A stretch of DNA of 64,000 nt, taken from Methanohalophilus sp. RSK (GTDB lineage: Archaea > Halobacteriota > Methanosarcinia > Methanosarcinales > Methanosarcinaceae). The DNA is taken from positions 62,001-126,000 of the forward strand of contig NZ_RDSK01000014.1 in the NCBI RefSeq assembly GCF_003722075.1, given 5' to 3'. This document shows, one piece after another, positions 46,231 to 50,804 of the stretch (position 1 is the stretch's first letter; every line of letters starts with the position of its first letter). Made by a program: the position numbers and the translations under genes. The notes under the pieces were generated by a model. That model saw only the letters and a list, made by a program, of their open reading frames with translations, was not told where the DNA came from and did no database searches.

Positions 46231-46396
46231 TTACTTAATCCTCCTTTTTATTTTCTGATCCATAATCCCTACAGATTTTCATGGATTTGCCTTAAGGAGG
46301 TAGGATGATAATTGTTAGGACGGCACATATCTGTTTCGTCTTCAACTGTTAGTCTATCTGAAAACCCGTCTCTCCCATTTCATTTTGGCCTTAAGT

Positions 46397-47590
46397 TTAC
46401 CTTCTTATCAATAAAGCTATTATCATTAGTACTCCAACAGTTAACAATATTCCAAATCCAGATGCTACAGTTGATTCATTCTCTGCACGATTTTCAACTT
46501 CTTCTTTCAACCTATCTTCTAATGACTCATTCAATGTTGTGGTGGAATCTGCAGAAGTTTCCTCCTCTTCATAAATTGCAGATATCGCAAACGGTGAAAA
46601 TCCGGGTGTTTCGGATTCATAAATGAAGTAATTCTCATTTTCATCTATAACTTCGGTTGGAAGCTGAGTCCATTCTCCATCATTATACCGGCAAAGTACA
46701 ACTGAAGAAGGTTCTACATCATTATCAGAAATCCATTCTTTACTTACCCTAAATCCAACTACAGGATCCTCCATATCATCTTCATTAAAGGCGACATTGC
46801 CAACCCAGATATTCAGATTCTGATAGACTTTTCCTGGTGCAGAAGAATCCACCAACGCTGATGTATCCTTGAGGACTTCAACTGATGTTTTGCTTTGACC
46901 TTCATTGGAGAGGCTTGTAAACTGGATGGTCATTAAATCGATATCATCTTCACTGAACTCATATCTTACATCTTCACCTGCAGCCACCTTACTCACCTGT
47001 GCATGCTTGGAGGCGATATTTTCAAACTCTTCACCTGTGGCCCCACCACCTCCTCCCCCACTTCCACCATTCCCTGAAGAATCGTCTTCTGAAGGAACAG
47101 TAGTTTCGTTATTGATATCAACAGTTTTGTTTGTAGATAATACACTTCCATGCAAATTTGCAGTATTTGCCATATCAATATTTTCTGGATAAATTGCAGT
47201 AGTATCACCTGCATTTCCGGTCACATTAAAGTGTAAATTAAATATATTTCCTGAAGATTCGTTTTTTATGGAAATGCTACTATCCGTTGTAGTCAAAGTT
47301 ACAGAATGAACATTATCTCCTGTAAGAATAGTCCATCCGTTTGTGAGGTTACCGACTTCTACAGATTCAAGGAACAGAACTGACTCATTGTATTGTATAT
47401 CACATTTAATGGTCTGGATTGGACCATTGGAAACATTTTGAATAATGATTGGAATTGATAGTGTATCGTTCTCATTTGCTTCATAATCTTCCTTTAATCC
47501 GATTGAATCCGCCATAACAAGACTTTCACTTTTTTTAGAGTCATATATTCTCCTGTATTTATAAGAATTATTTAGATTCTTGAGTGTCAC
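46397..47590 (-). CDS. Cohesin domain / PGF-pre-PGF surface protein, membrane-anchored C-terminus
   Basis: A 397-residue protein. Residues about 25-165 form a cohesin-like domain (ADSIGLKEDYEANENDTLSI, ...NGPIQTIKCDIQYNES), then a Gly-rich linker (GGSGGGGGG). A PGF-pre-PGF-type domain (about 190-350, VAFNEDDMEDPVVGFRVSKE) and an acidic stalk follow, then a C-terminal membrane helix (ASGFGILLTVGVLMIIALL) ending in Arg-Arg. It starts at GTG, overlapping the stop of the preceding gene (GAGTGA). It has no signal peptide, although every domain is of extracellular type. Either it is joined to the upstream protein by a -1 frameshift, or the leader has been lost. Confidence 0.75.
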   Translation of the reverse strand: MTLKNLNNSYKYRRIYDSKKSESLVMADSIGLKEDYEANENDTLSIPIIIQNVSNGPIQTIKCDIQYNESVLFLESVEVGNLTNGWTILTGDNVHSVTLTTTDSSISIKNESSGNIFNLHFNVTGNAGDTTAIYPENIDMANTANLHGSVLSTNKTVDINNETTVPSEDDSSGNGGSGGGGGGATGEEFENIASKHAQVSKVAAGEDVRYEFSEDDIDLMTIQFTSLSNEGQSKTSVEVLKDTSALVDSSAPGKVYQNLNIWVGNVAFNEDDMEDPVVGFRVSKEWISDNDVEPSSVVLCRYNDGEWTQLPTEVIDENENYFIYESETPGFSPFAISAIYEEEETSADSTTTLNESLEDRLKEEVENRAENESTVASGFGILLTVGVLMIIALLIRR

Positions 47591-49953
47591 TCCAATACTA
47601 TATCTCCGACACTGGCTTGTATCATCATATTGACGTCTACTGCATCTGCAAATTCTTCATTTTTATCAAGATCAAAATAACGATTTGATGCTAAGTTTCC
47701 TACACTGGCTTGCATCATCATGTTAACGTCTACTGCATCTGCAGAAATTCCATTCCCATCAAGATCGCCAGTAATTATCATATTGGAATCTCTATAGATA
47801 TCGGAGCCGGCGGATGTTTGTACAGATATTTCTTCAGAGTAGAAACCGGCTTTGTCGAATATGATATTATATGTCCCAGGTTCAATATTTGTAAATATAT
47901 AATATCCTGAAGTGTTAGTAGTGTTTTTATCAATCAGATTTCCAGACTGCATAAAAGATACATCAACATTTTCAATACTTGTGCCATTGAAGTTGTAGCT
48001 AACATTACCAGACAATCTTCCTGGAGTTTCCACTGTGAAAATACCATTTTTGGAAGAAGCATAACCATGTAAATTTGCAGTATTTGCTAAATCAACATTC
48101 CATGGGGTTAGTTCAGTACTTTCACCAGACTTTCCAATTACGGAAAATGTTAAATTACAGATATCTCCAGATGATTCATTTTGGATAGTAAGTTCACTAT
48201 CAGAAGTAGTTAGAGTGATTGAATATCCATTGATACCTTTGGATACTGTCCATCCTGATGTGAGATTGCCTGAGCCTATAGATTCAAGAGACAGAATTGA
48301 TTCATTGTATTGTATATCACATTTAATGGTCTGGATTGGACCATTTGAAACATTGAGAAGTTCTAATGGAATAGTTAAAGTACTGTCTTCTACTGCACTT
48401 GAATCATTAAAACCGATCGATTTAGCCATGCATATAATGTTCTCATCGATAGCAATATAGTCAATTTTTGTTTCAGTATCATCAGCTACATCGTTAATTG
48501 CAGTAAGACTGACATTATAGTTTCCGTAATTTGTGTACGTATGCGTTGGATTTTGTTCTGTTGAAGTATTACCGTCACCAAAATCCCAAAGCCATTGTGT
48601 AGGTTCTTTTGATGACAAATCTGTAAATTTCACAGACAGTGGCGGAACAACTCCTGAAGTAACATTGGATGTAAAGTCAGAAACCGGAGGATATGCAGAT
48701 ATGAAATTATGCAATTGAGGGTACCCATCATTTATGGATGCATGAATAAACCATGCATTATCAAAATCCCAATTTGTGTATGTTGATTGCTGTTTCATTT
48801 CGATAGTAGTTTTTGGTATACCTTTTCCTGTATCACTTTGTCCTGATGTTTCTTTGTTGTAGTAACTACTAATAACACTTCCAAAATTGCCACCAATGAG
48901 ACCGCCATAATAATCATTGCCATTCAAATTCCCAATTGAATAGCTGTTTTTGATTGTACTACCAGAATCACTAGAACCGATTAAACCACCTATGTACCAG
49001 TGACCAGTCACATTTCCTGCCGCATAGCTATTATAAATTTCACCTTGCGAATTTTCACCAACAAGTCCACCTACATAGTCGGCATTGCCAATCACATTTC
49101 CTGTTGCATAACTTTGATTGGTAATGGATTCATAATTGTAACCAACAAGTCCACCCACATAGTCTGAATTGCCAGTTACATTTCCTGCTGCATAACTTTG
49201 ATTGATAATAGATACATAGTTGTAACCAATAAGTCCACCCACACGTATGTAACTGCCAGTTACATTTCCTGTTGCATAGCTATTATAAATTACACCGTTT
49301 AAATTCCTACCAATCAGTCCTCCAACCTCGGAGTCATAACCAGTCACATTTCCTGCCGCATAGCTATTATAAATTTCACCTTGCGAATTTTCACCAACAA
49401 GTCCGCCTACATAGTCGGCATTGCCAATCACATTTCCTGTTGTATGACTTTGATAGATAATAGATTCACGATTGCAACCAACAAGTCCGCCCACATATGT
49501 ATTTCCACTTACATTGATATTGTTAAGCCCTAAGTAAGATATTATTATTTTATTATTTTTGCGAGTACAACCGAAGAGGCCCACGTATTCGGAAAATGGT
49601 CTATTAATGAATAAATCAAATATTGTGTAATTATTGCCGTCAAGAGAACCAGTAAATCTGTAATCATAATCACCGATTGGTTCAAAACCTGCACCATCAT
49701 TCCATTCAGATGTTACAGATGCATCAATATTATTAATCAGTATATAGTTTGCATCTAAGTCATTCTGTATATTTTGAAGTTCATTTACATTCGATATCTG
49801 ATATGGACTCTCAACAGAACCATCTCCACCTGCAAATGCAGCAGCAGAGCCAGTAATTAATATTATACAAAATAGAAATGAAATAATGGGATATTTTACA
49901 ATTGATATATCGGTTACTGTTTTTCTGATAATACTGTATTCATCTTTTGGCAT
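47587..49953 (-). CDS. Secreted GLUG-PKD-cohesin-dockerin surface protein
   Basis: A 788-residue exported protein when started at the ATG of 49953; longer N-terminal forms up to 50031 are open. In order: a signal peptide with long n-region (hydrophobic core ISFLFCIILITGSAAAFA), and about seven GLUG repeats (GGLVGENSQGEIYNSYAAGN). Then come a PKD domain (WLWDFGDGNTSTEQNPTHTY), a cohesin-like domain (NGPIQTIKCDIQYNES), a carboxypeptidase-regulatory-like domain (TNTSGYYIFTNIEPGTYNI), and a two-repeat dockerin (GDLDGNGISADAVDVNMM, FDLDKNEEFADAVDVNMM). The cohesin is about 70% alike to that of the next gene. The role is probably adhesion or surface assembly. Confidence 0.8.
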   Translation of the reverse strand: MPKDEYSIIRKTVTDISIVKYPIISFLFCIILITGSAAAFAGGDGSVESPYQISNVNELQNIQNDLDANYILINNIDASVTSEWNDGAGFEPIGDYDYRFTGSLDGNNYTIFDLFINRPFSEYVGLFGCTRKNNKIIISYLGLNNINVSGNTYVGGLVGCNRESIIYQSHTTGNVIGNADYVGGLVGENSQGEIYNSYAAGNVTGYDSEVGGLIGRNLNGVIYNSYATGNVTGSYIRVGGLIGYNYVSIINQSYAAGNVTGNSDYVGGLVGYNYESITNQSYATGNVIGNADYVGGLVGENSQGEIYNSYAAGNVTGHWYIGGLIGSSDSGSTIKNSYSIGNLNGNDYYGGLIGGNFGSVISSYYNKETSGQSDTGKGIPKTTIEMKQQSTYTNWDFDNAWFIHASINDGYPQLHNFISAYPPVSDFTSNVTSGVVPPLSVKFTDLSSKEPTQWLWDFGDGNTSTEQNPTHTYTNYGNYNVSLTAINDVADDTETKIDYIAIDENIICMAKSIGFNDSSAVEDSTLTIPLELLNVSNGPIQTIKCDIQYNESILSLESIGSGNLTSGWTVSKGINGYSITLTTSDSELTIQNESSGDICNLTFSVIGKSGESTELTPWNVDLANTANLHGYASSKNGIFTVETPGRLSGNVSYNFNGTSIENVDVSFMQSGNLIDKNTTNTSGYYIFTNIEPGTYNIIFDKAGFYSEEISVQTSAGSDIYRDSNMIITGDLDGNGISADAVDVNMMMQASVGNLASNRYFDLDKNEEFADAVDVNMMIQASVGDIVLE
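49003..49453. repeat. GLUG-coding direct repeat, 336-bp offset
   Basis: About 115 bp at 49003-49117 recurs at 49339-49453 with only a few changes. It encodes two successive GLUG units of the surface protein on the minus strand. The offset of 336 bp equals 112 codons. Other GLUG units in between are more diverged. Recent internal duplication or gene conversion explains the near identity. Confidence 0.85.
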
Positions 49954-50139
49954 AGTTTTAGATGTGAATTGACAACACTTAAATTTTCCTATATGAATCG
50001 AATATGAATTTGAAGTTCTTTTATATTCCAAAACATTTGATAGCTGTTAAAGGTAAAAACTACAAATTTCTTCAATCTTTATTATTAACATTAATTTACT
50101 TTATTTCACTAATCGGGAAAATTATACATCACAACCAAT

Positions 50140-50553
50140 TCAAAAATAACAAGACAAAACACCAATTTTCGGGCTATGTTTTCTAATTTTCCCACCTCCA
50201 AGATGTCCTACATTATCTCTTTTATAATCCGGTTTCATTTCTGATTTAAACCATTTGGAATCAATTTTATAAATTGAATATTTGTGAATACCATTATCCG
50301 GGCTTGTTTTGTCCTCAAGTATCGCAATCACATTGTCAACTCTGTCTAAGACATTATGTGGGATACCTATCCTATTATTACTTTTATGGGCACTCTTTAT
50401 GACAACTTTTTGGCCATCAAGTATAGTTTCATTGCTATTATTTCCGTTATCGAGTAATTTCACACCAAAGTGCTTTGCTGCATGCTTAGCCATAAGATGA
50501 CCAAAATTATTACCGGCTCTCCCGGAGTCCTCATCTTGTACCATGTATCTCAC
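50140..50553 (-). CDS. Hypothetical protein, possible nuclease-like fold
   Basis: A 137-residue protein that I do not recognise. It contains a beta strand with a charged core (GQKVVIKSAHKSNNRIGIP), a short helix (NVLDRVDNVIAILEDK), and a basic C-terminus (PDYKRDNVGHLGGGKIRKHS). The arrangement vaguely recalls small restriction-like folds, but no catalytic triad can be assigned. The start may be at 50553 or the ATG at 50544, which has GGTGAG upstream. It lies upstream of the surface-protein operon on the same strand but about 190 bp away. Confidence 0.5.
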   Translation of the reverse strand: MRYMVQDEDSGRAGNNFGHLMAKHAAKHFGVKLLDNGNNSNETILDGQKVVIKSAHKSNNRIGIPHNVLDRVDNVIAILEDKTSPDNGIHKYSIYKIDSKWFKSEMKPDYKRDNVGHLGGGKIRKHSPKIGVLSCYF

Positions 50554-50555
50554 CT

Positions 50556-50666
50556 TTATAAATAATTTTTATTTGTTGTGAAAAGTTCAAAACCAACTGA
50601 GGAACATTCCACTTCTCCGAAGTGCTTCTTATAATTCGTGTGGCCAGTGATCAAGAATTTAGCCAT
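50556..50666 (-). CDS. Possible 36-residue small protein
   Basis: A short frame from ATG 50664-50666 to TAA encodes MAKFLITGHTNYKKHFGEVE and 16 further residues. Its composition is protein-like and it lies just upstream of the gene at 50140-50553 in the same direction, whose ribosome site overlaps its end. There is no ribosome site before its own ATG. It is listed as tentative; it could equally be a remnant of a larger gene. Confidence 0.25.
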   Translation of the reverse strand: MAKFLITGHTNYKKHFGEVECSSVGFELFTTNKNYL

Positions 50667-50804
50667 GTATGAATATTTGAAATTCTATTATATAAAATAT
50701 TTGAAGTTGCAATGTTGATCATCTAATACAAAATCGGCATTTAAAACAAATTTGCAGATTTCTGTTTATCAGTATTAATTATAACACCGCAAAAAAGATT
50801 GTGA

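Follow-up and report, generated by a model that had tools for sequence, protein, structure and literature searches.

The 64,000-nucleotide stretch analysed here (the window), from the genome of a salt-loving, methane-producing archaeon of the genus Methanohalophilus, carries on its minus strand two adjacent genes for cohesin-containing proteins (Table 1). The protein encoded by the upstream gene (gene 1) begins with a signal sequence, which is followed by GLUG repeats (Pfam, E 7e-30), a PKD domain, a cohesin (cohesin A), a CarboxypepD_reg domain and a C-terminal dockerin-like module; the orthologous genes of M. mahii and M. profundi have their ATG at the position matching 49953 (MSKDKYSIIRKK and MTKDRYSIIRKK, respectively). 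The frame of the downstream gene (gene 2), if read from a GTG at the junction, extends over 46397-47590 and encodes a second cohesin (cohesin B), a PGF-pre-PGF domain and a terminal membrane segment. In these respects the domain content given in the initial annotation is confirmed, i.e. the upstream protein has an export signal, the cohesins of the two proteins are related (58% identical, both above the PF00963 cut-off), and the downstream protein combines its three modules with no signal peptide in frame. Pfam detects no hydrolase domain in either protein, and the dockerin-bearing glycoside hydrolases by which a cellulosome is recognised are thus absent from the pair.

Table 1. Features of the cohesin gene pair and its surroundings, in the order in which the minus strand is read (positions are those of the window).
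Feature	Position	Strand	Evidence
137-aa ORF travelling with the pair	50140..50553	-	upstream of the pair in M. mahii too; partly alignable in M. profundi
Upstream gene, exported protein, 788 aa	47587..49953	-	ATG 49953; ORF and Pfam
PKD domain, residues 449-527 of the 814-aa ORF	48451..48687	-	PF18911, E 2.8e-17
Cohesin A	48097..48399	-	PF00963, 27.1 bits (cut-off 24.1)
CarboxypepD_reg beta-sandwich, directly before the dockerin-like module	47800..48015	-	PF13620, 39.4 bits
Two-repeat dockerin-like module, GDLDGNGISADAVDVNMMMQASVG... / FDLDKNEEFADAVDVNMMIQASVG	47590..47769	-	no PF00404 match; both repeats align weakly with archaeal dockerins (hhalign)
Shine-Dalgarno AGGAG of the original downstream gene	47550..47554	-	sequence; conserved in both orthologues
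Original downstream ATG, opening a 16-codon dead-end ORF (MTLKKVKVLLWRIQSD, then stop)	47542..47544	-	orthologue alignment
Surviving 13-bp direct repeat TGAAAGTCTTGTT, probable deletion scar	47516..47528	-	alignment with M. mahii and M. profundi
Downstream gene body, no in-frame start or signal peptide	46397..47515	-	ORF, Pfam, orthologues
Cohesin B	47162..47482	-	PF00963, 30.3 bits (cut-off 24.1)
PGF-pre-PGF domain	46580..47032	-	TIGR04213, 185 bits (cut-off 28)
C-terminal membrane segment SGFGILLTVGVLMIIALLIRR, PGFG in M. mahii	46400..46462	-	sequence

The C terminus of the upstream protein had been described as a two-repeat dockerin. Two repeats are present there, but the module is not recognised by PF00404 (no match at E values up to 10; cut-off 22.9 bits), and a direct search of the window genome with this model likewise gave no match. 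The corresponding modules of two relatives reach sub-threshold Dockerin_1 scores (12.1 and 16.9 against 22.9 bits), and a comparison of profiles with hhalign aligns both repeats with archaeal dockerins, albeit as a weak match (E 6e-5, probability 65%). When CarboxypepD_reg and the module were searched together against the PDB, the best matches were the scaffoldin chains 4wi0 and 4u3s, again weak (E 0.017 and 0.05); the module alone, as sequence or as profile, gave nothing meaningful in the PDB sequence search. Across 25 modules the pattern D(L/F)(N/D)xNGxxADxxD occurs twice per module, with loop residues D1, D10 and D13 present without exception in the first repeat and almost without exception in the second, N or D at loop position 3, mostly N at position 5, and a loop spacing that differs from the canonical one. 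The combined profile and pattern evidence weakly suggests a divergent dockerin-like module. Published counts fit a family that standard repeat models miss: in a domain table whose columns we read in legend order, two ANME-1 genomes have 149 and 112 dockerin domains (IPR016134) with 1 and 0 type I repeats (IPR002105), and M. mahii is apparently credited with three cohesins and no dockerins (PMC5244752).

Gene order provides a second line of evidence. The module occurs in few archaea. It is present in 10 of the 186 genomes of the order Methanosarcinales, strongly in 8, and a cohesin gene adjoins it at every locus read in that order, lying immediately downstream and with its own signal peptide in genomes G038, G080 (at two loci) and G072, downstream in G059, and divergently in G092. 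In the phylum sample the module is concentrated in one further family (f10), possibly ANME-1, where a separate cohesin ORF lies within 1.5 kb on either side at 22 of the 28 listed loci, in genomes whose cohesin domains number just 0-19 per genome. Outside the pair, Pfam detects no cohesin in M. mahii or M. profundi.

It is conceivable that the two-repeat module is an unrelated calcium-binding tail, its position beside a cohesin gene reflecting a cluster of surface-protein genes of the type common in many such genomes; the lack of a PF00404 match for the window sequence and the altered loop spacing are as expected on that reading. The profile match to dockerins, however, spans both repeats, two relatives give sub-threshold matches to Dockerin_1 itself, the PDB match at E 0.017, though weak, is to scaffoldins, and the module adjoins cohesins far more often than expected, and we thus consider an unrelated tail unlikely and retain the assignment as a divergent dockerin-like module.

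Other dockerin and cohesin arrangements were observed alongside. A second, unrelated pair lies on the minus strand of contig 17 of the window genome (L075, 5694-7553 and 7558-9765), in which an exported protein (735-codon open frame) ends in a canonical-looking dockerin, also missed by PF00404, and is directly followed by a protein with two cohesins of 65 bits each. In G072 (L092 4404-6662) a protein with three cohesins and a C-terminal canonical dockerin is encoded after two genes that carry the variant dockerin, which gives a small scaffoldin-like arrangement.

The junction of the two genes was compared with the orthologous pair in two congeners, M. mahii (G007) and M. profundi (G004, L035). 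In both, the pair consists of two genes 42 nt apart with a signal peptide on each, the arrangement that the initial annotation had itself named as contrary to its reading; gene 1 terminates in the same GAGTGA, and gene 2 has an AGGAG Shine-Dalgarno sequence, an ATG start and a signal peptide of typical form (MTLKKVKVLFGILSILIITLLLPIGANS-TESLVMADLIG in M. mahii). In the DNA alignment the window follows the orthologues through the spacer, the Shine-Dalgarno sequence, the ATG and a run of seven A, then has a gap of 70 nt relative to M. mahii and 73 nt relative to M. profundi, and then matches again, the flanking DNA being near-identical. The missing stretch is bounded exactly by two copies of the 13-bp direct repeat, which are exactly 70 nt apart in M. 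mahii and 73 nt apart, with one mismatch in the first, in M. profundi. Its absence removes the core of the signal peptide and shifts the frame: since 70 is not a multiple of three, the old ATG now leads only into the dead-end ORF, and the frame of the body happens to stay open across the former spacer as far as the stop of gene 1.

The initial annotation placed the start of gene 2 at the GTG that overlaps the upstream TGA. The overlap exists, but not as a meaningful start, since in both orthologues the frame of the same GTG closes (at SQFN, then a stop) before the downstream protein begins. In all probability the gap between the 13-bp repeats is a deletion by slippage or recombination and the origin of the apparent overlap; judged by the alignments, the GTG-TGA overlap arose fortuitously through that deletion and holds no frameshift site. 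The suggestion of a split by a recent indel holds as far as a recent 70/73-nt deletion is concerned, but what the deletion destroyed is the start and signal peptide belonging to the second gene, and no single gene was split. A -1 slip on the run of seven A at the old start would regain the frame of the body; it was set aside, the signal peptide still being missing.

The downstream body shows dN/dS values of 0.13-0.30, which do not indicate long relaxation, and the lesion is therefore either recent or an error of assembly. The latter would mean that the strain carries an intact pair, and the 18-contig draft state of the genome, the repeats flanking the gap and the lack of relaxed selection are all compatible with an assembly or sequencing artefact. 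On the other hand, reads are much longer than a 13-bp repeat at a distance of 70 nt, which makes collapse in assembly unlikely, repeat-flanked deletion is a standard type of mutation, and the window copy has a further change, SGF for PGF, at its anchor motif. An artefact is, on balance, improbable. Given the loss of the export signal, gene 2 is very probably inactive in this genome, where it is probably a recent pseudogene. A little less probable still is that the shortened gene continues to be translated, beginning either at the GTG, with coupling to the end of gene 1, or at an ATG at 47515, its product working intracellularly or inserting by its C-terminal helix alone. The body frame is open and undecayed, as this would require, but the cohesin and PGF-pre-PGF domains here belong to exported proteins, ATG 47515 has no Shine-Dalgarno sequence, and the ATG that is preceded by one is out of frame. 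The single giant protein of about 1180 residues proposed in the initial annotation, which would depend on programmed -1 frameshifting close to the end of gene 1, is hardly credible and is rejected. The downstream frame is open for some 66 nt upstream of that stop, such that ribosomes slipping by -1 in this zone would join the two products. In M. mahii and M. profundi, however, the -1 frame is closed ahead of the downstream body; both species lack the overlap and have two separate genes, the second with its own Shine-Dalgarno sequence, ATG and signal peptide. A search of the 70-nt zone open in both frames found no slippery heptamer (X XXY YYZ), as the initial annotation had also noted.

The anchor region of gene 2 differs between the species. 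No match to the PGF-CTERM sorting signal (TIGR04126) was found in the window copy, where SGF replaces the PGF of M. mahii; the M. mahii copy, with PGF present, itself scores only 10.7 bits against a cut-off of 24.5. The window genome encodes archaeosortase A (TIGR04125, 302 bits). In M. profundi the downstream copy has lost one T near the anchor, and with it the anchor. We first read this as an independent loss of the gene, a view we dropped because argF is also split by a frameshift in the same assembly (L073 713-1617), which points to indel errors in this draft; the one-T lesion may accordingly be a sequencing error. AlphaFold models of the cohesin-CarboxypepD_reg-dockerin region and of the downstream body, built on two-sequence alignments, had pLDDT values of 45 and 35 and were too poor to use. 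Separately, in M. mahii (L038 1880-3169 and L036 5298-6524) the PGF-pre-PGF half of an unrelated surface protein is 80% identical over 235 aa to that of the downstream protein of the window; the N-terminal halves differ, which suggests domain exchange or gene conversion.

The pair occupies different chromosomal sites in the three species, together with the neighbouring 137-aa ORF, for which profile searches found no family. In the window the three genes fill a variable stretch (46235-50803) on the 3' side of tRNA-Leu(CAG). The same flank of this tRNA gene holds a 237-aa ORF of phospholipase-D-like appearance in M. profundi and a 103-aa ORF in M. mahii. On the upstream side of the 137-aa ORF, the final part of a SIR2-like gene seems to persist as a short remnant (window positions 50554-50650); the gene is intact at the same place in M. 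mahii (L036 880-1968; PADLOC SIR2 models, best E about 2e-13).

The ancestral locus was most probably a two-gene surface module. The product of gene 1 would be a secreted GLUG/PKD protein with a cohesin, ending in CarboxypepD_reg and the divergent dockerin, and that of gene 2 would carry a cohesin, have a signal peptide of its own for export, and be anchored in the membrane through the PGF-pre-PGF domain and C-terminal helix. We infer that the gene 1 dockerin plugs into the gene 2 cohesin and so tethers the gene 1 protein to the cell; the gene order, together with the pair's possession of the sole Pfam cohesins, leads to this prediction, and pairing of the dockerin with the cohesin of the neighbouring gene is somewhat favoured by the evidence. 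In the genome studied here, deletion between the 13-bp direct repeats then most probably deprived gene 2 of its signal-peptide core and frame. The self-assembling surface complex suggested in the initial annotation therefore survives for the putative ancestral pair, for which the gene order in several genera and the status of its cohesins as the only Pfam cohesins of M. mahii and M. profundi speak, but not for the window strain, where the anchoring half has lost its export signal. With a cohesin on the gene 1 product as well, chains might form, and since many proteins, that of the window included, carry both a cohesin and the module, head-to-tail fibres are conceivable. More speculatively, the module may represent a dockerin family that escapes Pfam, in which the loop spacing is altered and the partner is the cohesin encoded next door, building head-to-tail surface fibres capped by the anchored cohesin, in which case the window strain might shed its fibres; we advance this only tentatively.

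Dockerin and cohesin genes are adjacent in Archaeoglobus fulgidus. Archaeal cohesin-dockerin proteins outside cellulosomes are known and are most abundant in ANME (PMC9012536, PMC5244752). With such systems (A. fulgidus, ANME-1, ANME-2) the present pair shares the presence of cohesin and dockerin-type modules on exported proteins, the lack of cellulose degradation and the side-by-side position of the genes. It differs in that the module is missed by PF00404, has an altered spacing of the conserved aspartates and follows a CarboxypepD_reg domain, and in that the anchor is of the PGF-pre-PGF type, with the anchor gene broken in this genome. The order of a beta-sandwich and then a C-terminal two-repeat dockerin recalls the X-dockerin of cellulosomal scaffoldins (4wi0, 4u3s), although the similarity is very weak and neither enzymes nor a cellulose context are found here. 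As in other Methanosarcinales PGF-pre-PGF surface proteins, the TIGR04213 domain is accompanied by a C-terminal membrane segment and by archaeosortase A in the genome, whereas in the window copy the signal peptide is missing and PGF is replaced by SGF.

Overall, the frameshifted giant protein was a false lead, in place of which stands a small, testable system: in a cultured methanogen, M. mahii, the only two Pfam cohesins sit beside a dockerin-like module that Pfam misses. If the predicted pairing is true, the locus would provide a clean archaeal cohesin-dockerin pair, as well as a search profile with which partners could be counted in cohesin-rich genomes.
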